DNA from: Dongia deserti
GTDB lineage: Bacteria > Pseudomonadota > Alphaproteobacteria > Dongiales > Dongiaceae
Direction: 5' to 3'
Length of the DNA stretch: 64,000 bases
Assembly (NCBI RefSeq): GCF_003574735.1
Contig: NZ_QORW01000027.1
Span: 1-64,000 of the forward strand
Positions 1,916 to 12,311 of the stretch are shown piece by piece. How positions within the stretch are numbered: position 1 is the stretch's first letter; each line of letters starts with the position of its first letter. The notes beneath the pieces were generated by a model. That model did not search any database and was not told where the DNA came from. It saw nothing but the letters and a program-made list of their open reading frames with translations. The translations under genes and the position numbers were made by a program.

Positions 1916-2104
1916 ATGACAAGGGCAGGTACGCCTGTAACTTCGGCTGTCCAGCACAAGTCCTTCGCGGACTCAAGGATTTCGCCGCAACCGCTGCTTC
2001 GGTGCAAGTTGGCACCCCTTCCTCAAGAGATGCTTCGCTGCAGAAGCGACGTAACGATTTCGCCGCAACAGCTTTGTCGTTGCAAGGTCGCGGCAGGCAT
2101 CTAA
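1916..2104 (+). CDS. Putative RiPP precursor peptide, 62 aa, three Cys-containing repeats
   Basis: The start is set by GGAAGGAG at 1902-1909, six bases before the ATG at 1916; the in-frame ATG at 1910 overlaps this site. Residues 1-21 (MTRAGTPVTSAVQHKSFADSR) look like a short leader without a transmembrane or Sec signal. Residues 22-58 hold three related units: ISPQPLLRCKL, PLPQEMLRCRS and ISPQQLCRCKV. Each has PQ followed four to five residues later by R-C-K/R. There are four Cys (30, 42, 54, 56). Repeated Cys-bearing cores beside two YcaO genes suggest a modified peptide, with Cys (or Ser/Thr) turned into azolines or the backbone otherwise changed. I recognise no named precursor family. The protein is inferred from the sequence only. 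Confidence 0.6.
   Translation: MTRAGTPVTSAVQHKSFADSRISPQPLLRCKLAPLPQEMLRCRSDVTISPQQLCRCKVAAGI
1979..2089 (+). repeat. Three in-frame core repeats of the precursor-like gene
   Basis: Units 1 and 3 are also similar as DNA: both contain ATTTCGCCGCAAC, then after a variable middle TGCAAG. Unit 2 is more diverged. PQ pairs occur at residues 24, 36 and 50, and RC pairs at 29, 41 and 55, giving spacings of 12 and 14 residues. This pattern suggests internal duplication of a core, as in multi-core RiPP precursors. Confidence 0.6.
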
Positions 2105-2216: not shown

Positions 2217-3473
2217 ATGGAGGATTGCGGACATAGTCCTTTACGTGCCCTCTCGCAGATCGTGAGTGAGCCATACGCAATACCATGCATGGACGATGAG
2301 CCGTTCTTCCCGAGCTACATCGTCTATGCGGCAGATGGGGCAAATGCTCATGATGTAGTTGGCGAGGGCTCTGACCAATCGCTGAGCGGATTTGGAATTG
2401 CGGCGGAGCACTCGCTTGCTGAGATGAAGGCAGCGGGAGAGTGTCTGGAAAGCATCTGCGCACTGTTCCATAGACCGTCCAGAGACAAAGGGCCGGTTTC
2501 GTCCCAATCGCAGACGCTGGAGTCATCTGATCCGCGCGCATTTCGCGACGCGTTCTTTGCATCCCTCCCGGAGCATCACGAGGTCATAGACCATCAATTC
2601 GGGCTGTTAGAGCAGTGGCCCGTGTTGAACGCACGAACCGGTGAGGTCAGCACATGTCCAGCGCAGCTGATTTCTCTGTCCGCCGACTATGCGTCGGAAT
2701 GGCAACTCCTCTCAGAAAGAACGAGCGCGGGCCTGGCCGCTGGTGAAATTGGAACGCGACGCGCGACCACTGCTGCTGTACTCGAACACGTAGAGCGTGA
2801 CTCTGTGGCCGCCGCGTTCTCGGACCCTGAACGCATGAAGCCATTCGCGGCATTGCCAAGCGCGATCGCTGAACTGGTCAGCTATGTCGAGGGCTTCCGA
2901 CTCAAGCTGTTACTCTTCGACATCACATCTGATCTGGCCGTGCCGACGGTGTTGTGTATGGCACTCGACGAAACAGGACGAGGTCCCTTCTTGTCTGGCG
3001 GTGCGGCAGCGTGCCTGGACTTTAGCAACGCACTCGAAAAGGCGATACTCGAATCGGTCCAAGGACGCACAGTTCTGCGCCAACACGCGGCGGAATTTGC
3101 AGCCCTGAATGTCAAGTCCAGGCAATCGATCTCGTGTGGCATGGATCGTGTCGCCTACTGGTGGGATGTGGCACGGCACGCAGAACTGGACTTCTGCCTG
3201 CGAAGAGCGGAGCGGGACGGAGTGGACCCTGAGCCAGTCGCTTCCGTGCCCTCGTGCGAGTGTCTGCTGAATAACCTGTCAGTCAAAGGCTACGAGGTAT
3301 GGCTTGCTGACATCACTCTACCTTCTATCCGTGAGAGGGGATTTGAAGTCGTCCGCGCTCTTGTGCCAGGCCTGCACAGATTGCACCACAGCGAGGCCAA
3401 TCGGGAAAGCTACAGTCGACATTACGGGAACCTAGTGTGGGAGCAACATTGCCCACCTCATCCTATTGCGTAG
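2217..3473 (+). CDS. YcaO-domain protein 2
   Basis: This is a second YcaO-family enzyme of 418 residues. ATP-site signatures are SGFG (57-60) with GECLES (74-79), and TSAGLAAG (169-176) with EHVERD (190-195). A VVRALVPGL segment lies near the C-terminus. The protein ends in PPHPIA, resembling the proline-rich tail that classical azoline-forming YcaOs place in their active site. It is co-directional with and 112 bases downstream of the precursor-like gene, with a hairpin between. A purine-rich AAGGGGGG stretch precedes the ATG. The two YcaO proteins are only distantly similar, so they may act on different residues, as the two stand-alone YcaOs do in bottromycin synthesis. Confidence 0.82.
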   Translation: MEDCGHSPLRALSQIVSEPYAIPCMDDEPFFPSYIVYAADGANAHDVVGEGSDQSLSGFGIAAEHSLAEMKAAGECLESICALFHRPSRDKGPVSSQSQTLESSDPRAFRDAFFASLPEHHEVIDHQFGLLEQWPVLNARTGEVSTCPAQLISLSADYASEWQLLSERTSAGLAAGEIGTRRATTAAVLEHVERDSVAAAFSDPERMKPFAALPSAIAELVSYVEGFRLKLLLFDITSDLAVPTVLCMALDETGRGPFLSGGAAACLDFSNALEKAILESVQGRTVLRQHAAEFAALNVKSRQSISCGMDRVAYWWDVARHAELDFCLRRAERDGVDPEPVASVPSCECLLNNLSVKGYEVWLADITLPSIRERGFEVVRALVPGLHRLHHSEANRESYSRHYGNLVWEQHCPPHPIA

Positions 3474-3561: not shown

Positions 3562-5625
3562 ATGACGATCTCGATAGAGCCGGCCTGCTACACCAATCCG
3601 AAGCACAAGATTCTATTCGAGCCTGTAAGGATCGGACCGGTCGTCGCTCCTAACAGATTTTATCAGACGCCCTATGCAACGGGATTTGGCTTCCGGGATC
3701 CGAAGGCAAGCGCCAAGTTCCGAGAAGTCAGAGCTGAGGGTGGATGGGGCGTCGTCGGCACCGAGCAGACCGAAATTCATTCCTCTTCAGACATGACGCC
3801 GTACATAGAAGGCAGGCTTTGGGACGACAGCCACATCGCCGGGCTTGCGCTGAGCGTCGATGCGATCCACCGGCACGGTGCCTTGGCTGCGCTGGAACTG
3901 TCCCATGGCGGCTTGAATGTCATGAACGCGATTACTCGCGACGATGTCCTCGGCCCAAGTTGCCTGCCGCTGACACAAACATTTCCCACGCTGCCTGAAC
4001 CAGGCCACTGCCGAGCGATGAGCCTGGAAGACATAAAGACCCTTCGGGAGTGGCATGCGCAGGCGGCTGTCCGCGGGCTGAAAGCAGGCTTTGACATCAT
4101 ATATGTCTATGCCAGCTTGGTGCTGTCGCTGCCTGCCCAGTACCTGTCACTGCGCTACAACAAGAGAACCGATCAATACGGCGGCGCGCTAGAGAATCGC
4201 GTCCGCTTACTGCGGGAACTCATTGAAGACACAATCGATGCGGTGCAAGGGAAGTGCGCGGTGGCTGTACGCATAACCCTCGATGAGCTGTTGGCGTCTC
4301 CCGTCGACGGCAAGTCCGAACTTGAAGAATTCTTTGCCATCGTCGGGGAGTTGCCTGATCTTTGGGACATCGTGGTCGGCGGCTACGGAAACGATTCTGG
4401 ATCGGCACAATTTGGTGGCGGCGACATTGCGACGTCAGTCGTGAAGCGGGTGAAAGCGTTGACCACCAAGCCAGTCGTGAGTGTGGGCTGCTTTACCCAG
4501 CCGGACATCATGACGAAACTGATTCTGGAGGGCGTGGTGGACCTGATCGGTGCGGCACGTCCGTCGATTGCCGACCCATTCCTTCCGAAGAAGATCGCCA
4601 GCGGAAGAGGGAACGACGTTATCAAGTGCGTGGCATGCAATCTCTGCGTCGCAAGCGATTTCTCCAGCGCGCCGATCCGGTGTCCACAAAACCCGACGTC
4701 AGGCGAGGAGCTGAGACGTGGTTGGCATCCCGTGCATGTTGGTGCTGTATCGCGAAAGCGCTGCCTGGTAGTGGGCGCGGGCCCGGCAGGGCTGGAGTGC
4801 TCCAGGCTACTCGCCGCAGCCGGGCATGAGGTAACGATCGTTGAGCAGCAAGACTATGTTGGCGGTCGTGTGACTTTGGAGTCACTGCTGCCCGGCATGA
4901 GTCGATGGCGAGACCTCGTCTCCTGGCGACATGAAGCGTTGCTCAAGGACCCTGCCGTCAAGATTAAGACCAGTACACGTGCGGTGGCGGGGGCGTGGTT
5001 GTCGGATCGCTACGATCACATCATTCTCGCGACGGGTTCGCGATGGCGGAAAGACGGCATTGGTCAGTCCTGTCATTTTCCAGTACAGATCGACGGCGAT
5101 GCCGTTCCGTTGACGCCTGACGACGTGCTGAGGCGAATCCAAGGTGGTCAAACTCACTGGCCGAAGTCCGTAACGGTTTACGACGACGAGCACTACTACG
5201 TTGGGAGCTTGGTTGCTGAGCACCTTGCCGCGATGGGATGTCACGTTACCTTCGTGACACCGGCCGCCGAGGTGGCGGTCTGGACACATAAGACGATGGA
5301 GCAGACGTACTATCAATCCAGGATGATAAGGAGTGGCATCACAATTCTACCGCACTATCGCATGGCGCACATTTCCAGGAACTGGTGCCAGCTCGAGAAT
5401 GTGTTTGTCGGGTCGGTTGTTGAGGTTGCCCATGATGCGATCGTTCTAGTGACCGCACGAGAGCCGAACCGCGAACTCCATGATGCGCCGTTCATCGCCC
5501 TACCGACAGTGCGACCGACATTGGCAGGCGACGCGTCAGCCCCTGGGACGCTTGTGCATGTCACCTACGATGCCCATCGCGTTGCGAGAACCATAATTGA
5601 AGCCGACTCTTTGGTGGCGGCCTAG
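3562..5625 (+). CDS. TMADH/2,4-dienoyl-CoA reductase-type flavin and Fe-S oxidoreductase
   Basis: This 687-residue protein has an old-yellow-enzyme TIM barrel (about 15-350), a cluster motif CVACNLC...C with Cys 356, 359, 362 and 374 (CX2CX2CX11C, one [4Fe-4S]), and a dinucleotide-binding half with GAGPAG at 405-410. That order is diagnostic for trimethylamine dehydrogenase, 2,4-dienoyl-CoA reductase and related FMN/FAD enzymes. The barrel motif NKRTDQYGGALENR (200-213) is conserved. Known members remove N-methyl groups or reduce or oxidise unsaturated substrates. In this locus an inferred role is peptide tailoring, such as azoline oxidation or side-chain dehydrogenation. The stop abuts the next ATG with no gap, implying translational coupling. 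Confidence 0.85.
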   Translation: MTISIEPACYTNPKHKILFEPVRIGPVVAPNRFYQTPYATGFGFRDPKASAKFREVRAEGGWGVVGTEQTEIHSSSDMTPYIEGRLWDDSHIAGLALSVDAIHRHGALAALELSHGGLNVMNAITRDDVLGPSCLPLTQTFPTLPEPGHCRAMSLEDIKTLREWHAQAAVRGLKAGFDIIYVYASLVLSLPAQYLSLRYNKRTDQYGGALENRVRLLRELIEDTIDAVQGKCAVAVRITLDELLASPVDGKSELEEFFAIVGELPDLWDIVVGGYGNDSGSAQFGGGDIATSVVKRVKALTTKPVVSVGCFTQPDIMTKLILEGVVDLIGAARPSIADPFLPKKIASGRGNDVIKCVACNLCVASDFSSAPIRCPQNPTSGEELRRGWHPVHVGAVSRKRCLVVGAGPAGLECSRLLAAAGHEVTIVEQQDYVGGRVTLESLLPGMSRWRDLVSWRHEALLKDPAVKIKTSTRAVAGAWLSDRYDHIILATGSRWRKDGIGQSCHFPVQIDGDAVPLTPDDVLRRIQGGQTHWPKSVTVYDDEHYYVGSLVAEHLAAMGCHVTFVTPAAEVAVWTHKTMEQTYYQSRMIRSGITILPHYRMAHISRNWCQLENVFVGSVVEVAHDAIVLVTAREPNRELHDAPFIALPTVRPTLAGDASAPGTLVHVTYDAHRVARTIIEADSLVAA

Positions 5626-6555
5626 ATGACCCGGGAACACACGATCAGTAAGCAGGCATTCGGGGTTGTGACGCTTGGCGTCCTGTGGAGTGTTCAGCCG
5701 GCTATCGTCAAATACTCTGCCATCACCAATATGTCTCCGTCCGCCTTTCTGCTTGGCGCCTCCGCCACAGTTGCCATACTGCTCTGTGCGTACAATGTCG
5801 CGACCCGCCACTCGCTCCTTTCCATCGTTACGAAGTGGCGATTTTATCAAGCTTCGGCGTTGACTGGGTTCTTCTTTCCGCTTCTCGTCCGAATCTATAT
5901 TTCAGACACGGTGCCGCTCTACATTCTCACCGTTGCCGTTGCGCTGACTCCCGCATTTGTCGCTCTCATAACCCGGTTCTATCTGGGGCAAGCGCTATCC
6001 ACGCTGGCGGCTTGGTCGCTTATCCTTGGTGTTTGCGGCACAATCATAAGCGTTCTTCCGGACATCGCTGACGGAGACACCGCTCTTCGCATGAAGAGTC
6101 TGGCGGTAGTGCTCATTCCATTCTCCTACGCAGTCAATCAGGTGTTCGTGTGCAGGGCATTTCCAACGGATAGCACTTCGATACAGGTGGCCGCAGGCGA
6201 GAGCGCCCACACACTTCTTATCACCGTCTGCTTTGTCATAAGCATGGTGCTTCTCGGACGCGATGAGATTGGTGATCCGTTGGATGTATCGGCCGTCTCA
6301 GGTGCTGTGCTTTTCTGGGGAATAGTCACCGCGCTGGAGACAGTCGCGTTCTTCTGGTTCTCTGCTCGGGCACACCCGATAAGTGTTTCCGTCGCGGTCT
6401 ATACGTCGATCGGCTTTAGCATCTTCGGTGGCTGGCTGGTCTTCGGGGAGGAGGTAAGCGCGAGCAGCCTGTTGGGGGTAATTCTGATTGTGCTGTCTGC
6501 TACAGGGATCGCATATCAGGAAGGCCGCAAGACCAGCCGCACGGGCGTAACGTAG
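5626..6555 (+). CDS. EamA/DMT-family transporter
   Basis: This 309-residue protein is mostly hydrophobic, with about ten predicted membrane segments in two five-helix halves, the usual EamA layout. The glycine-rich last segments around GWLVFGEEVSASSLLGVILI match the conserved end of the second EamA repeat. Family members export or import metabolites such as amino acids. Its ATG directly follows the stop of the oxidoreductase gene, so the two are almost certainly co-translated. The likely role here is export of a small product or self-protection. Peptide export by EamA proteins is not established, so the cargo is open. Confidence 0.8.
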   Translation: MTREHTISKQAFGVVTLGVLWSVQPAIVKYSAITNMSPSAFLLGASATVAILLCAYNVATRHSLLSIVTKWRFYQASALTGFFFPLLVRIYISDTVPLYILTVAVALTPAFVALITRFYLGQALSTLAAWSLILGVCGTIISVLPDIADGDTALRMKSLAVVLIPFSYAVNQVFVCRAFPTDSTSIQVAAGESAHTLLITVCFVISMVLLGRDEIGDPLDVSAVSGAVLFWGIVTALETVAFFWFSARAHPISVSVAVYTSIGFSIFGGWLVFGEEVSASSLLGVILIVLSATGIAYQEGRKTSRTGVT

Positions 6556-6613: not shown

Positions 6614-6802
6614 ATGCCACTAATTCGAGTCGAGTTCTTGAAGGGAAGAACGCAGGAGGAGAAGAAGAAGCTCATTCGTGCACTAACCAACACGTATGCG
6701 GAAGTGATGGGGAGCGATCCGGAAAGCATCTATGTAATTATTGAGGAGAGGGAGTGGACCGACTGGGCCCTTGGCGGCGTGCCGTTCTCAGAGCGACCAT
6801 GA
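6614..6802 (+). CDS. 4-oxalocrotonate tautomerase-family protein
   Basis: The 62-residue length and the Pro directly after Met are hallmarks of the 4-OT family, where Pro1 is the catalytic base after Met removal. The opening MPLIRVEFLKGRTQEEKKKL fits the beta-alpha unit, and VIIEEREWTDWALGGVPFSE fits the usual second half. GGAGG sits five bases before the ATG. Family members shift keto-enol double bonds and assemble as hexamers. It is 58 bases downstream of the transporter and likely in the same operon. A tautomerase in a YcaO locus is unusual. Confidence 0.78.
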   Translation: MPLIRVEFLKGRTQEEKKKLIRALTNTYAEVMGSDPESIYVIIEEREWTDWALGGVPFSERP

Positions 6803-7123: not shown

Positions 7124-9169
7124 ATGTTGACGGCGCACCTGCTTGGCGGATTCAGCCTCAGCGACCCCAAGGGCCGCGATGTCTCGCCGCGCTCGCGCAA
7201 GGCACGCGGGCTGCTCGGCTATCTGCTGCTATCGGACCTAGGCAGCGAGCGGCGCGAGAAACTGGCCGGACTGCTGTGGAGTGAGAGCCCAATCGAGCAG
7301 GCTTATGATTCCCTGCGGCATTGCGTGGCAGAGCTACGGAGGGTTGGCCAGGCTGCCGGCATCGCCTTTCTCAATGCCGACCGGCAAAGCGTGCGCATCG
7401 ATCGGTCGCAGATCAGATGTGACGTTGTTGACCTGAAAGCCAACCTTGCCGCCGCGCGCACCGCGGATTGCCGTCACCTGCTGTCAGCGCCCGATCTCAC
7501 CTTGATGCCGGGCTTGGAGGCGGACGATCCGACCTTCGACAACTGGCTTCTGGTCGAGCGCGAACGCAATGCCGAGATCCTCGTGCGCGAGATGCTGGTA
7601 CTCCTGCAGCGCCCGGGCATCGAGCCGCGCGACCGGGTTGACCTGGCCCGCGCGATCGAGCGGCTCGATCCCTATCAGGAGGATGCCGTCCGCATTCACA
7701 TGGAGCAGCTGGCGGCGGAGGGCAATATCGCCGCCGCGACCGCCTATTTTGAGCGATACCGTGCACGATTGCTCCGCGAATACGAGGTCGAGCCATCGGA
7801 AGGGCTGGTAGACTTTGTCGAAGGCCTCGCCGCGCGCCGGAGCGGTGCCAGCCGCAAGCCAAAGACTGTGGAACCGGCTTCCTTGGAGCCTGCGATCGCG
7901 CCTCAGCCGGAGGCGGGACGCCACGGCGTTCCGATCATTGCGGTTCTTTCGGTGCCGAGCGCGCAGCAATCTGATCAGCTTAGGTACCTCTCAGAGGCCT
8001 TCATGCAGGAGCTTGTGTCCACCCTGTGCCGCTTCAAGGATTGGACCGTGACTGTCCCCGGCACGCCAATGGAAGAGAAGGTTCAGTCGAGTGCTGACGC
8101 TGCGCTCGCTGAATTGTCGGCCCGCGGCGTGGATTTTGCCCTCGTCGCGTCCATTGCCGCGGTCGCCGGCGCAACGGCCATCAATGTAAGGCTGGTCGAG
8201 TGCGACAGCCGTGCTGTGGTGATCTCCGATCAATACCCTGCTTCGTCGGAGAACTGGCTCGCGGCGTTGAATGACATCTGCTGCAGGATCGCGTCCCGGA
8301 CCAAGATTAGCTTGGTGACCGCCCGGTTGCGACGAGTCGCGGGGCGATCGATCGAACGGCGCCAAGCTTATGACCTTTGGCTGGAAGGTCGGGTCATGGC
8401 TAACATCTGGGAGCCTGAGACCGAAGAAAAGGCGGTCGAGCTGTTCTCGCGTGCCGTGCAATTGGACGGCAATTTGGCGGACGCCTACTCATGGTGGGCC
8501 TCAGTGCTGAATTCTCGCTGGATTGTCCATCCCGGCGCGATCGCTGATGAGGGGAACCGCGAACGGGCGTACCAGCTCGCCAAGCGCGCGGTGGCGCTGG
8601 ACCCGCTGAACAACCTTACGCAAGGCAATCTCGGGTGGAGCCACCTTCTCGCGCGCCGCTTTGAGTCGGCGGAATTGCACTTTCGCCTGGCGTACGAACT
8701 CAATCCCTCTAGCCCGGACAATCTGCTGGCGTGCGGACTGGCGAGCGCGTTCTGCGGTGATCATCCACGCGCCCGGGAGCTTTCGCGGCGCGCCTTCGAC
8801 CTCAACCCGTTTCCGCAGCCTTATTACTATGGATATCGTGCTAGCATCGATTTTCTCGGACGCGACTTCGTGGCCTGCATCGAGGCGGTCAATCGCGTGC
8901 CCGACTTGTTCCCTGACATCCAGGGCTGGGCGGCGGTGTCGCATGCCCATCTGGGCCAGCTTTCAGCCGCGAGTTCTGCGCTCGACCGCTATCAGGAGGA
9001 CATGCGCAGATGTTGGGCAGGCCCGTCGAACCCGAACGGCGAGGACCTATGTACGTGGTTTGCCACGGCCTTCCCCATTCGCCTTGAGGCCGATCGCCAG
9101 CTGATTGCAGACGGCCTCGCGATGATACGGCAGCAGGTACAGGCCCTCGCACGCCGAATGTCGTCTTAG
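7124..9169 (+). CDS. SARP-type transcriptional activator with BTAD and TPR domains
   Basis: This 681-residue protein begins with a winged-helix DNA-binding segment (about 1-90, including LLGGFSLSDPKGRDVSPRSR and REKLAGLLWSE). A bacterial transcriptional activation domain follows (about 95-235). A middle part (about 265-390) resembles the TolB-like or adenylate-cyclase-associated region, and a long C-terminal half is made of TPR-like helices (about 400-660). SARP proteins often activate secondary-metabolite clusters, and this one sits between two unusual loci. Its stop overlaps that of the convergent NHLP-like gene. The ribosome binding site is weak. Confidence 0.78.
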   Translation: MLTAHLLGGFSLSDPKGRDVSPRSRKARGLLGYLLLSDLGSERREKLAGLLWSESPIEQAYDSLRHCVAELRRVGQAAGIAFLNADRQSVRIDRSQIRCDVVDLKANLAAARTADCRHLLSAPDLTLMPGLEADDPTFDNWLLVERERNAEILVREMLVLLQRPGIEPRDRVDLARAIERLDPYQEDAVRIHMEQLAAEGNIAAATAYFERYRARLLREYEVEPSEGLVDFVEGLAARRSGASRKPKTVEPASLEPAIAPQPEAGRHGVPIIAVLSVPSAQQSDQLRYLSEAFMQELVSTLCRFKDWTVTVPGTPMEEKVQSSADAALAELSARGVDFALVASIAAVAGATAINVRLVECDSRAVVISDQYPASSENWLAALNDICCRIASRTKISLVTARLRRVAGRSIERRQAYDLWLEGRVMANIWEPETEEKAVELFSRAVQLDGNLADAYSWWASVLNSRWIVHPGAIADEGNRERAYQLAKRAVALDPLNNLTQGNLGWSHLLARRFESAELHFRLAYELNPSSPDNLLACGLASAFCGDHPRARELSRRAFDLNPFPQPYYYGYRASIDFLGRDFVACIEAVNRVPDLFPDIQGWAAVSHAHLGQLSAASSALDRYQEDMRRCWAGPSNPNGEDLCTWFATAFPIRLEADRQLIADGLAMIRQQVQALARRMSS

Positions 9170-9558
9170 CCGTGCTTGCAGCGGCCGAACATGTATTCCC
9201 CGAAGCGGAAGAACATGGCTTTACGCGGGAAGCGGCTATCATCGATATAGTCCGGCGTTCCCGGCCGGTATTCGAGCGGATAGACGCTGGTCTGCTCGTC
9301 GATGCGGTCCATGGCCCGATCGACGTCGTCCTTCCACGGCAGCACCATGTGCGTCACGTCACGGGTATCTTCGTGAACGATGATGGTGTGCTTCACAATC
9401 TTGCCGTTCTCTTCCCTGTCGGCCGGAATGTCGACGAACTTGCTCAGCGTCCCGATCGGGTCTTCAACCAATTGCCGCCTTGCACCGCCAATATCCTGGG
9501 CAGCCTTGATGATGAGTTCGCCCAGTTCAACCTTGTCCTTTACGCGCAGCTTTGCCAT
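9166..9558 (-). CDS. NHLP-leader-like (nitrile hydratase leader peptide) domain protein
   Basis: The start at 9558 is supported by AAGGAG nine bases upstream; the frame extends further, but without a ribosome binding site. The 130-residue product opens MAKLRVKDKVELGELIIKAA, continues with RRQLVEDPIGTLSKF, then HTIIVHEDTRDVTHMVLPW. That series (Ala/Asp helix, LxxDP, VHEDTxxxxHxVLP) resembles the NHLP leader domain, derived from nitrile hydratase alpha subunit and used as a long leader by some RiPP precursors. About 55 residues follow, ending FGEYMFGRCKHG. It is the last gene of a minus-strand operon with a haem peroxidase. It could be a RiPP precursor or an accessory subunit. Confidence 0.6.
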   Translation of the reverse strand: MAKLRVKDKVELGELIIKAAQDIGGARRQLVEDPIGTLSKFVDIPADREENGKIVKHTIIVHEDTRDVTHMVLPWKDDVDRAMDRIDEQTSVYPLEYRPGTPDYIDDSRFPRKAMFFRFGEYMFGRCKHG

Positions 9559-9607: not shown

Positions 9608-11266
9608 CTAAGCCAGTGTTTTGACGATGACCTCGGCAAGATCGGCATCGGGCATCGCCGGGACCTTCAGCAGGTGCGGCAGCTTCACGATGCCGGTGGG
9701 TTTCAGGATCCGATCGAAGTCGAGCCCCCTTTGCCCTGCAGGCGTCGCATAGGTCTGCGGAGCTTTCTTCAACGCATACAGGATCGCCGCCGCGAAAATG
9801 TGGGAGCCGAGCGGCCCGAGGTAGCGTCCGTTGCCGCCAAGCACCGCGGCTTCCTGCAGCAGATAGTAGGAGAGCGGCGTCTCCGTCAGGAATTCTGGAT
9901 GCGCCTGCAGTGCGGCCGTCAGCTTCTCCGCCGGGTGCAGGTTGGAGAATGCCGGTCTTGGCAGCATGTCCTCTTGTGTCAGAATCTTCTTCGACGCAGA
10001 GCCGAACAGCTGGCGCGCGCACTCCTGCCCCGTGGGAATCTCGAACTGATAACACCGCCAGAGATCGTGGAACGAGAGCGAGCCCTCGAAGTCGGTGCGT
10101 CGGTTCTTGAGATCGCTATGAACGAAGGTCGGCGCCAGGAATGGCGAAATCCGCCGGGCGCTTTGCGGCGTAACTCGATCCTCCATCTCTCCATCGTCCA
10201 TCTCGAGCAGCTGGCGCCAATCGACGACCCAGTCCGCCGGCAGCGGCAGATTGGCGCCCGGCGAACTGGAGGAGAACGACATCAGCCGGCCCAGGCCGCT
10301 GGCACCCAGACCGATATGATTGTTGATCGTGTACGCCGCGCGGACCATCGCGTGCCCGACGCGCGCAGCACCGAACACGAATTCGATCGGCAGATGGTCC
10401 TGCGATGCGATCTTTCCGGCTTTCAGATCGCCATAGACCGCAGGCAGCAGGAGAAGCTGCAGATAGTCGTGCACGACGATGCGGCGGTATGCTATCAGAA
10501 CGAAGTGCCGCGCGAGCTCGAAGCTCTCCTTCTTCGACAGCGGCCGGTTCGCGTCGGCGGGATCGCCATTGTGATGCAGGTAGCGCGCAACCCTATTGTG
10601 CACGAGCATGAACTGCGCCGTGAGCTGTGCCAGGATAAGGTTGTCGTCGTTGCGCGCGTCGCGTACCAACGGCGTTATGCTTGTCCCTGCAGACCACCCC
10701 CCGGCCGCACCGGCTCTCGGAAGGTCATAGGGAAGGCCTTCGCCCTGCTCCCAATTCTCCGGTAGTGCCGCCTTGGCAGTACGCCCCAGATGGAACAGGT
10801 ACTGGCCGTCATCCTCGATATCCTGCGGCCGGTTCAGATAACCCGCCTCATACGGCGCCTGATAGAGGTGAGGGCATTGCGTCGGACCGCCGCCGTAGAT
10901 CGTGTCCAGGTCGAGGTTCGGCGTCATCAGATTCTGCAGCGTGACGGATGCTCCGCCCTGCCCCGAGCCGGCAATGCTCTGGGTCAGGTCGTGCACGACC
11001 AGCTGGCCGAAGTACGTATATCCCGCAGGGATGTTGTCGCGATCGTCCTTGGGCGGATCATCGACACCGCTGGATCGCGCATCCGCGATCTCGGCGATCG
11101 CATTCCTGTCCAGTGCCGCGCTGCCGCGCTTTGCCGTCGTGCCCGCAGCGAACAGGTTGCTGTAGTGCTTGACCGGGCATTGCACGTGCGTGCCTTCGCT
11201 GCCGCTCGCCGATGCTGCTGACGAGAGATTGCTGCCATGAATGTCGGAAAGATTACCGTGCCGCAT
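9608..11266 (-). CDS. Animal-type haem peroxidase
   Basis: This 552-residue protein matches the animal haem peroxidase superfamily (myeloperoxidase/cyclooxygenase fold). Its distal-site motif YFGQLVVHDLT holds His92 and Asp93. A second block, VRDARNDDNLILAQL followed by FMLVHNRVARYL (201-230), corresponds to the family's conserved DxRxxxNxxL...HNR region. RRIVVHDYLQ (261-270) is a candidate proximal-His segment. The ATG at 11266 has GGAGG five bases upstream, better than the longer frame to 11302. No signal peptide is evident, so it may be cytoplasmic. Bacterial members oxidise fatty acids, halides or peptides using peroxide. It is the third gene of the four-gene operon. Confidence 0.85.
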   Translation of the reverse strand: MRHGNLSDIHGSNLSSAASASGSEGTHVQCPVKHYSNLFAAGTTAKRGSAALDRNAIAEIADARSSGVDDPPKDDRDNIPAGYTYFGQLVVHDLTQSIAGSGQGGASVTLQNLMTPNLDLDTIYGGGPTQCPHLYQAPYEAGYLNRPQDIEDDGQYLFHLGRTAKAALPENWEQGEGLPYDLPRAGAAGGWSAGTSITPLVRDARNDDNLILAQLTAQFMLVHNRVARYLHHNGDPADANRPLSKKESFELARHFVLIAYRRIVVHDYLQLLLLPAVYGDLKAGKIASQDHLPIEFVFGAARVGHAMVRAAYTINNHIGLGASGLGRLMSFSSSSPGANLPLPADWVVDWRQLLEMDDGEMEDRVTPQSARRISPFLAPTFVHSDLKNRRTDFEGSLSFHDLWRCYQFEIPTGQECARQLFGSASKKILTQEDMLPRPAFSNLHPAEKLTAALQAHPEFLTETPLSYYLLQEAAVLGGNGRYLGPLGSHIFAAAILYALKKAPQTYATPAGQRGLDFDRILKPTGIVKLPHLLKVPAMPDADLAEVIVKTLA

Positions 11267-11408
11267 GTTCCCCTCCGCGAAAAGCGATACCCGCTTGCCC
11301 AAACAGATCGGCGACGAAGGCCTATGCTACTCGTGCTTGCGGTATCCCGCTTGTGTCAAAATGCGTGTGGGTTAGGGGCGGCACATCATGTGCGCCGCCC
11401 GCTCCTGA

Positions 11409-11714
11409 TCACCCCGTCGGAAACCAAAGGCTGGCGTGAAGAATCTCGTCAACGATGCTGTCCCTGGTGTGCGCAAGCGGCCGATCGTACGTCTTCACCG
11501 CCTTGATACGAATATCTTCCGCATGCAGTTCGGCGTATTTCGCACGCAGTGCTTCGAAGATCGCCGAAAGCCGATCTGCCCATGGCTCCGGACCGATGTT
11601 CAGGTTCGCTGGCTTCAAGCCAACGTTATACTCATCCTCCGGGATCAATGTCGGCACCAGGACGTGAAACATGGCTCGATTCACGTCGTAGTTCACCTGT
11701 ATGCGGGTAGGCAT
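11409..11714 (-). CDS. Small conserved-looking protein B, paralogue of the upstream gene
   Basis: This 101-residue protein has a GGGAG ribosome binding site six bases before the ATG. I recognise no family. It aligns with the product of the neighbouring upstream gene. Shared positions include DVN..M, an L-x-P with a following E/D-K/E-Y, PW or DW then L..IF.A.R.KY, and PLA.T...IV..I. It is soluble, without a signal or membrane segment. The gap to the peroxidase gene is 142 bases. A role as a substrate-binding or scaffold partner of the peroxidase is inference from context. Confidence 0.65.
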   Translation of the reverse strand: MPTRIQVNYDVNRAMFHVLVPTLIPEDEYNVGLKPANLNIGPEPWADRLSAIFEALRAKYAELHAEDIRIKAVKTYDRPLAHTRDSIVDEILHASLWFPTG

Positions 11715-11739
11715 CGTACTCTCCCTCAGCCGCCGCCAT

Positions 11740-12135
11740 TCAACTCGCCTGGCGCGCCGGGGCTTTGGTCGTGGAACCCAGGACGCGGCGCTTGAATGCG
11801 TGTCGCAGCGATGGCGAAAAAATTCTCCCGACGATCAGCTGATGCGTGGTCGCCAGTGGCAGTGCCAACGTGGCAGCAATATCCTGCTGCGATGGCCGCG
11901 GCGGCAGGACCGGGTACTTCCGGCGCACCGCCTGGAATATGGACGTCAGCTGCTCCGTCCAGTCGGGTGTTGTCGCATTCCAGTCCTGCTGCGGAACCAG
12001 GGCCAGATCGTATTTCTCGGCATCGACTGGTTTGGGAGTGAGCGCGTCGTACATCGTCTGGTTGACGTCATGCGCGACGGTGATCGGGTCTGGCACCATC
12101 AAGGCTGCCCTTTCCAAAGCTGTTAAAGTCTGCAT
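11740..12135 (-). CDS. Small protein A, paralogue of the following gene
   Basis: This 131-residue product starts MQTLTALERAALMVPDPITV; GGGAGAA precedes the ATG. It is the first gene of the minus-strand operon (A, B, peroxidase, NHLP-like), only 25 bases from gene B. The central segment DVNQTMYDALTPKPVDAEKY and later QLTSIFQAVRRKYPVL pair with matching positions in B, so the two arose by duplication. It carries a short extra N-terminus and a basic C-terminal tail. The function is unknown; conserved domains were not recognised by eye. Confidence 0.65.
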   Translation of the reverse strand: MQTLTALERAALMVPDPITVAHDVNQTMYDALTPKPVDAEKYDLALVPQQDWNATTPDWTEQLTSIFQAVRRKYPVLPPRPSQQDIAATLALPLATTHQLIVGRIFSPSLRHAFKRRVLGSTTKAPARQAS

Positions 12136-12311
12136 TGTGGTTCTCCCTCGGTATGAGTGGTGACGGGGGCAAGATGACCAAAAGTGCCGTGAAGCCAGCG
12201 TGAATAACCGAATCTCTGGAATCACAAGTATTTAGCTGCTCCTTTCACGCTGATGCGCGGGCTCTGCGCGTCGGTTAGATTGCAGATCGATCAACGACGA
12301 ACGGAATTTCT

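Follow-up and report, generated by a model that had tools for sequence, protein, structure and literature searches.

A putative multi-core RiPP precursor encoded ahead of a stand-alone YcaO in Dongia deserti

A 62-aa peptide encoded at positions 1916-2104 (+ strand) of Dongia deserti is probably a multi-core RiPP precursor, the cysteine units of which are modified by the stand-alone YcaO protein encoded next to it (YcaO2). It lies in a contig stretch of 64,000 nt that was analysed as a whole, here called the window. The sequences reveal three repeated units in the peptide, a gene order in which the peptide directly precedes YcaO2, a multi-core peptide before a YcaO2 relative in another alphaproteobacterium, and a motif shared with the peptides of a neighbouring YcaO cassette. 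Judged on sequence, the candidate fits the general description of a RiPP precursor, i.e. a short ORF with core-like units beside a RiPP-type modifying enzyme.

Repeat units and coding potential of the peptide

The ORF starts with an ATG at 1916, 6 nt behind a Shine-Dalgarno sequence (AAGGAG, 1904-1909, + strand), and stops with TAA at 2102-2104. Following a 21-residue front, it encodes three PQx[LM]xRC[K/R] units on the + strand, PQPLLRCK (1985-2008), PQEMLRCR (2021-2044) and PQQLCRCK (2063-2086), spaced by 36 and 42 nt (12 and 14 codons, both multiples of three). All three match [LM]xRC[KR], and the third has a second cysteine two residues before its conserved one. The original prediction had reported a strong ribosome binding site six bases from the ATG and the spacings of 12 and 14 residues, both of which were confirmed. 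Its leader-like front of 21 residues is present and carries no recognised leader motif.

Pairwise comparison of the units by BLOSUM gives a lowest score of 31, whereas 2,000 shuffles reach 18 at most. By repeat score the peptide ranked first among the 201 ORFs of 50-80 aa within the window, and when 1,715 ORFs of 50-100 aa from all loci were scored blind for repeats, it came first and a peptide of genome G348 second. The units score a summed BLOSUM of 97 in the annotated frame, whereas the other five frames reach 27-47. Three such in-frame units greatly exceed chance expectation, and their similarity peaks in the coding frame. At the DNA level, units 1 and 3 lie inside a 44-nt repeat (1970-2013 and 2048-2091, 77% identical) and 22 nt are common to all three units at 77%, which indicates that the array arose by duplication. 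The earlier claim that two units share DNA sequence was therefore right about the sharing and too low in its count, as all three do.

Codon usage of the ORF is not gene-like, scoring under all windows of the neighbouring genes, and the few synonymous changes among the three units give no clear or significant excess. An 18-bp hairpin without a T run (2129-2172, + strand) is located between the peptide and YcaO2, in a 112-nt gap with a folding z of -4.3, and could possibly serve as an attenuator or stabiliser. The DNA repeats (44 nt, 77%), the codon usage and the strong hairpin 3' of the ORF would all suit an alternative in which the ORF is untranslated and open by chance, the repeats being a non-coding direct-repeat element that provides binding sites or a leader RNA for the YcaO2 operon. 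We regard this as quite unlikely, given that the Shine-Dalgarno sequence and start are well placed, the spacings are multiples of three, the units resemble one another far more in the coding frame than in the others, the motif matches that of the companion peptides described below, the G348 counterpart displays clear protein-level selection, and no Rfam family matches. That Rfam search returned no family for the region, and scans for sigma-70 promoters and intrinsic terminators gave no match. Perfect TTGACA and TATAAT hexamers, only 12 nt apart, occur at 1813-1836, about 80 nt upstream of the peptide ATG.

Searches for sequence homologues of the peptide in its own genome, in plasmids, in 385 Alphaproteobacteria and in ten genomes carrying the cassette described below yielded none, only weak matches, many of them crossing stops. 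The original prediction had made a conserved homologue beside related YcaO genes its own test, and none was detected. A match in a viral contig was dismissed as a chance match, as it spans 16 residues with no sensible ORF.

The YcaO2 operon and its counterpart in genome G348

YcaO2 (2217-3473), a stand-alone YcaO of a rare clade and the likely modifier of the peptide, is followed on the + strand by a flavin/4Fe-4S enzyme of the TMADH/histamine dehydrogenase family (3562-5625), an EamA-type transporter (5626-6555) and a 4-oxalocrotonate-tautomerase-like protein (6614-6802). YcaO2 has a YcaO fold resembling LynD and methanogen YcaOs, and retains the paired ExxE, with E75, E78, S170, E190, E193, R194 and E279 invariant. 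When a PxPxP ending was looked for, the C-terminus proved partly Pro-rich (PPHPIA), and the G348 relative ends in PSPFV; a Pro-rich C-terminus is characteristic of azoline-forming YcaOs (PMC8442711).

The best NCBIfam matches of the 3562-5625 product are FadH/OYE-like, a generic name that was replaced after comparison with its best solved relatives, histamine dehydrogenase and trimethylamine dehydrogenase (3k30, 6de6, 1djn; E 3e-178 and 2e-121). Near full-length similarity and the kept 4Fe-4S cysteines argue for membership in this family, whereas the alignment places Ala at the position of the Cys that we take to be the covalent-FMN attachment site of TMADH-type enzymes. Unlike these relatives, this putative TMADH-type enzyme is part of a YcaO operon.

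We infer translation of the ORF, a substrate-enzyme pairing with YcaO2, thiazoline chemistry, cleavage and export. The precursor would consist of a short front followed by three units, each with one conserved Cys in [L/M]-x-R-C-[K/R]. YcaO2, encoded 112 nt downstream, would activate the peptide backbone at these units with ATP by phosphorylating the amide before each Cys, and the Cys would most likely be cyclised onto the preceding Arg carbonyl to form a thiazoline, giving a product with Arg-thiazoline-Lys at up to three units. As guesses, the TMADH-like flavoenzyme may oxidise this product further and the EamA transporter may export it.

Catabolic pathways commonly include TMADH-like enzymes, EamA transporters and tautomerases, and some YcaO proteins have functions other than RiPP formation. 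Both facts would accord with a catabolic or regulatory operon whose YcaO2 targets another protein and whose TMADH-like enzyme breaks down an amine, with the peptide serving as a small regulator or a Cys-based metal binder; roles of YcaOs outside RiPPs have been mentioned (PMC8442711). However, a peptide of Cys-containing repeat units directly before a YcaO recurs in G348, and the companion peptides, encoded next to a different YcaO, have a conserved Cys motif at their ends, so that we consider such an operon very unlikely.

A search for YcaO2 in the 385 Alphaproteobacteria returned six weak to moderate matches besides itself, the best being in G348 (E 9e-28). The two proteins are about 31% identical and are joined in the tree with 100/99 support on long branches. 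The clade had no match in 299 genomes across the phylum, and no further close member was found in plasmids, phages or viral contigs, or near G348; within the genomes and collections searched, it comprises these two known members only. The possibility that YcaO2 is a recent duplicate of the second YcaO in the window (YcaO1) was rejected by the tree.

The G348 YcaO gene, the only close relative of YcaO2 (locus L015, 7932-9155, - strand), is preceded 91 nt upstream on the same strand by a gene for a 76-aa peptide with GGAGG before its ATG (L015 9246-9476, - strand). This peptide consists of five repeats of 10 residues with one Cys per unit (EVKASSHCGK, EVTASSQCRA, EVEGSAQCGI, EVTASNSCKE and EVKASSQCGK; pattern EVxxSxxC). 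Among the repeats, 73 of 130 pairwise nucleotide differences fall at third codon positions and 42 codon differences are synonymous, and repeat similarity is 288 in frame versus at most 22 in the other two forward frames. The excess at third positions together with the in-frame similarity makes protein-level selection clear, and the G348 peptide is clearly under purifying selection. Its repeats have only the Cys and the layout in common with the units of the window. That the enzyme and the layout recur although the peptide sequences differ is the best support for reading the 1916-2104 peptide as multi-core. The multi-core precursor originally proposed gains from the multi-copy, one-Cys-per-unit peptide of G348 and from RC[K/R] at the C-termini of the companion peptides, and loses from the lack of a conserved homologue and of an RRE protein nearby. 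JmjC and PhzF-like genes are also present near the G348 peptide and YcaO.

The neighbouring YcaO1/peroxidase cassette

The YcaO2 operon is flanked by parts of a second gene set. This comprises YcaO1 (114-1595, - strand), which belongs to a clade tied to a peroxidase cassette, a BTAD-TPR (SARP-like) regulator (7124-9169, + strand), a companion peptide of 130 aa ending in FGEYMFGRCKHG (9169-9558, - strand) and an animal-type haem peroxidase (9608-11302, - strand). Beside the peroxidase lie genes for two short proteins that are homologous to each other and belong to no known family (11409-12225, - strand); in the congener they are fused as one 262-aa protein (L014 4556-5344). The window begins at the first base of its contig, and the region downstream of YcaO1, past the short stretch 1-113, lies outside it. 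The combination of YcaO1, BTAD-TPR regulator, peptide of 130-165 aa and haem peroxidase was found at 14 further loci in Mesorhizobium and other Alphaproteobacteria, including the congener (L014/L030), Mesorhizobium (L027, L031-L034, L036-L038), Pararhizobium (L035), genomes G1012 (L066), G882 (L067) and G245 (L020), and an Acetobacteraceae MAG in which the cassette is partial at a contig end (L039). The YcaO1 proteins form one supported clade in a tree calculated without L067.

About 60 nt separate the divergent, neighbouring regulator and YcaO1 genes of the congener, whereas in the window the YcaO2 operon stands between them, with a GC content of 0.53-0.58 versus 0.63-0.65 for YcaO1 and the regulator. 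Based on this adjacency and the low GC, the YcaO2 operon appears to have been inserted between the divergent YcaO1 and regulator genes of the cassette. A 13-nt repeat shared by the upstream regions of the two divergent genes was discarded, as it does not exceed chance with two mismatches allowed.

Most companion peptides end in RC[K/R], as do the units of the 1916-2104 peptide. Their C-termini include VMSRCK, VMTRCK, IMTRCR, TLRRCKN, MFGRCKHG and LLKRCR as well as the diverged TIAQCG and SISNCQ, and the Cys motif mostly follows G[DE]Y. In Pararhizobium, a quite different peptide of 146 aa (L035 6535-6975) still ends in LLKRCR. Across 14,873 residues of long ORFs in the window, [LMFI]xRC[KR] appears a single time, and one of 212 cysteines sits within RC[KR]. 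The RC[K/R] motif had been named in the original prediction, before the cassette was known. Given the similar [L/M/F]xRC[K/R] motif at the end of the cassette peptide, the YcaO2 operon and the YcaO1/peroxidase cassette may make related products.

The same tail raises the alternative that the peptide is a true precursor modified by YcaO1, with or without the peroxidase, its RC[K/R] units copying the tail of the YcaO1 substrate. The tail is conserved in the cassette, and YcaO1 is transcribed divergently from the same intergenic region as the peptide. However, in other genomes the YcaO1 cassette carries a single long peptide and none that is multi-core, the 1916-2104 peptide is transcribed in the same direction as YcaO2, and the relative of YcaO2 has a multi-core peptide of its own; we therefore judge modification by YcaO1 to be unlikely.

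The cassette itself is a probable undescribed RiPP family. Membership of its peptide (9169-9558) in the NHLP family (TIGR03793) was rejected at 14.9 bits versus a curated cut-off of 50.9, seven relatives of the peptide likewise gave no NHLP match, and its AlphaFold model is too uncertain for use. Matches in Pseudonocardia and Actinotalea (L040-L042) were set aside as another YcaO arrangement with no link found; in Pseudonocardia (L040, L042), an OYE-family gene lies about 6-7 kb from two adjacent YcaO genes.

In the open-library literature searched, we met no YcaO cassette that includes a haem peroxidase, old yellow enzyme or amine dehydrogenase, and no precursor peptide associated with a histamine dehydrogenase. 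Speculatively, and with rather low confidence, the YcaO2 clade could represent a separate RiPP group of stand-alone, RRE-less YcaOs acting on multi-core peptides with one Cys per unit. In D. deserti, a TMADH-type amine dehydrogenase would then add a modification undescribed in RiPPs, and the operon would have been inserted into a second YcaO/peroxidase pathway with a similar core motif. If so, this would add a small group of multi-core precursors with its own stand-alone YcaO clade, and next to it a YcaO/haem-peroxidase cassette, apparently undescribed, that occurs across Mesorhizobium and other Alphaproteobacteria and whose peptides share a conserved Cys motif at the C-terminus. Both gene sets are short and would show whether isolated Arg-Cys-Lys sites can be acted on by a YcaO that has no RRE.

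Comparison with known YcaO-dependent and multi-core systems

With regard to LAP/TOMM systems, YcaO2 provides a YcaO D protein with ATP-binding residues, and Pfam and NCBIfam scans of the neighbouring genes detected no C protein or RRE, although a diverged RRE inside the YcaO N-termini is possible. As in azoline-type systems, the YcaO adjoins a short Cys-containing peptide and azoline chemistry is probable. Unlike systems with a C protein/RRE, such a partner and a SagB/McbC-type dehydrogenase were not found here, and azoline-type cores are rich in Cys, Ser, Thr and Gly, whereas this peptide carries isolated RC[K/R] units. Near 1916-2104, neither a protease nor an azoline dehydrogenase of any known type was recognised, and the TfuA partner of thioamidated RiPPs is absent among the neighbouring genes scanned.

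Bottromycin and streptamidine systems also operate a YcaO without a C protein, as in the window, and two YcaOs per cluster, likewise as in the window, are found in bottromycin and some streptamidine-like clusters (PMC4603692, PMC8442711). However, no radical-SAM methyltransferases were detected among the genes scanned, the contig ending left of YcaO1, no AmiC-type hydrolase was identified, and the window precursor is multi-core. Since the tested defining features fail, the peptide was not assigned to TOMM/LAP, thioamide RiPPs or bottromycin. Several repeated units per peptide, as in the window, are known from the multi-core precursors of cyanobactins and microviridins (PMC5934393), whereas recognised cleavage signals, PatA/G proteases and an ATP-grasp ligase are lacking here. 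Taken by its sequence and gene context, the 1916-2104 peptide appears to behave like a YcaO-dependent RiPP precursor.
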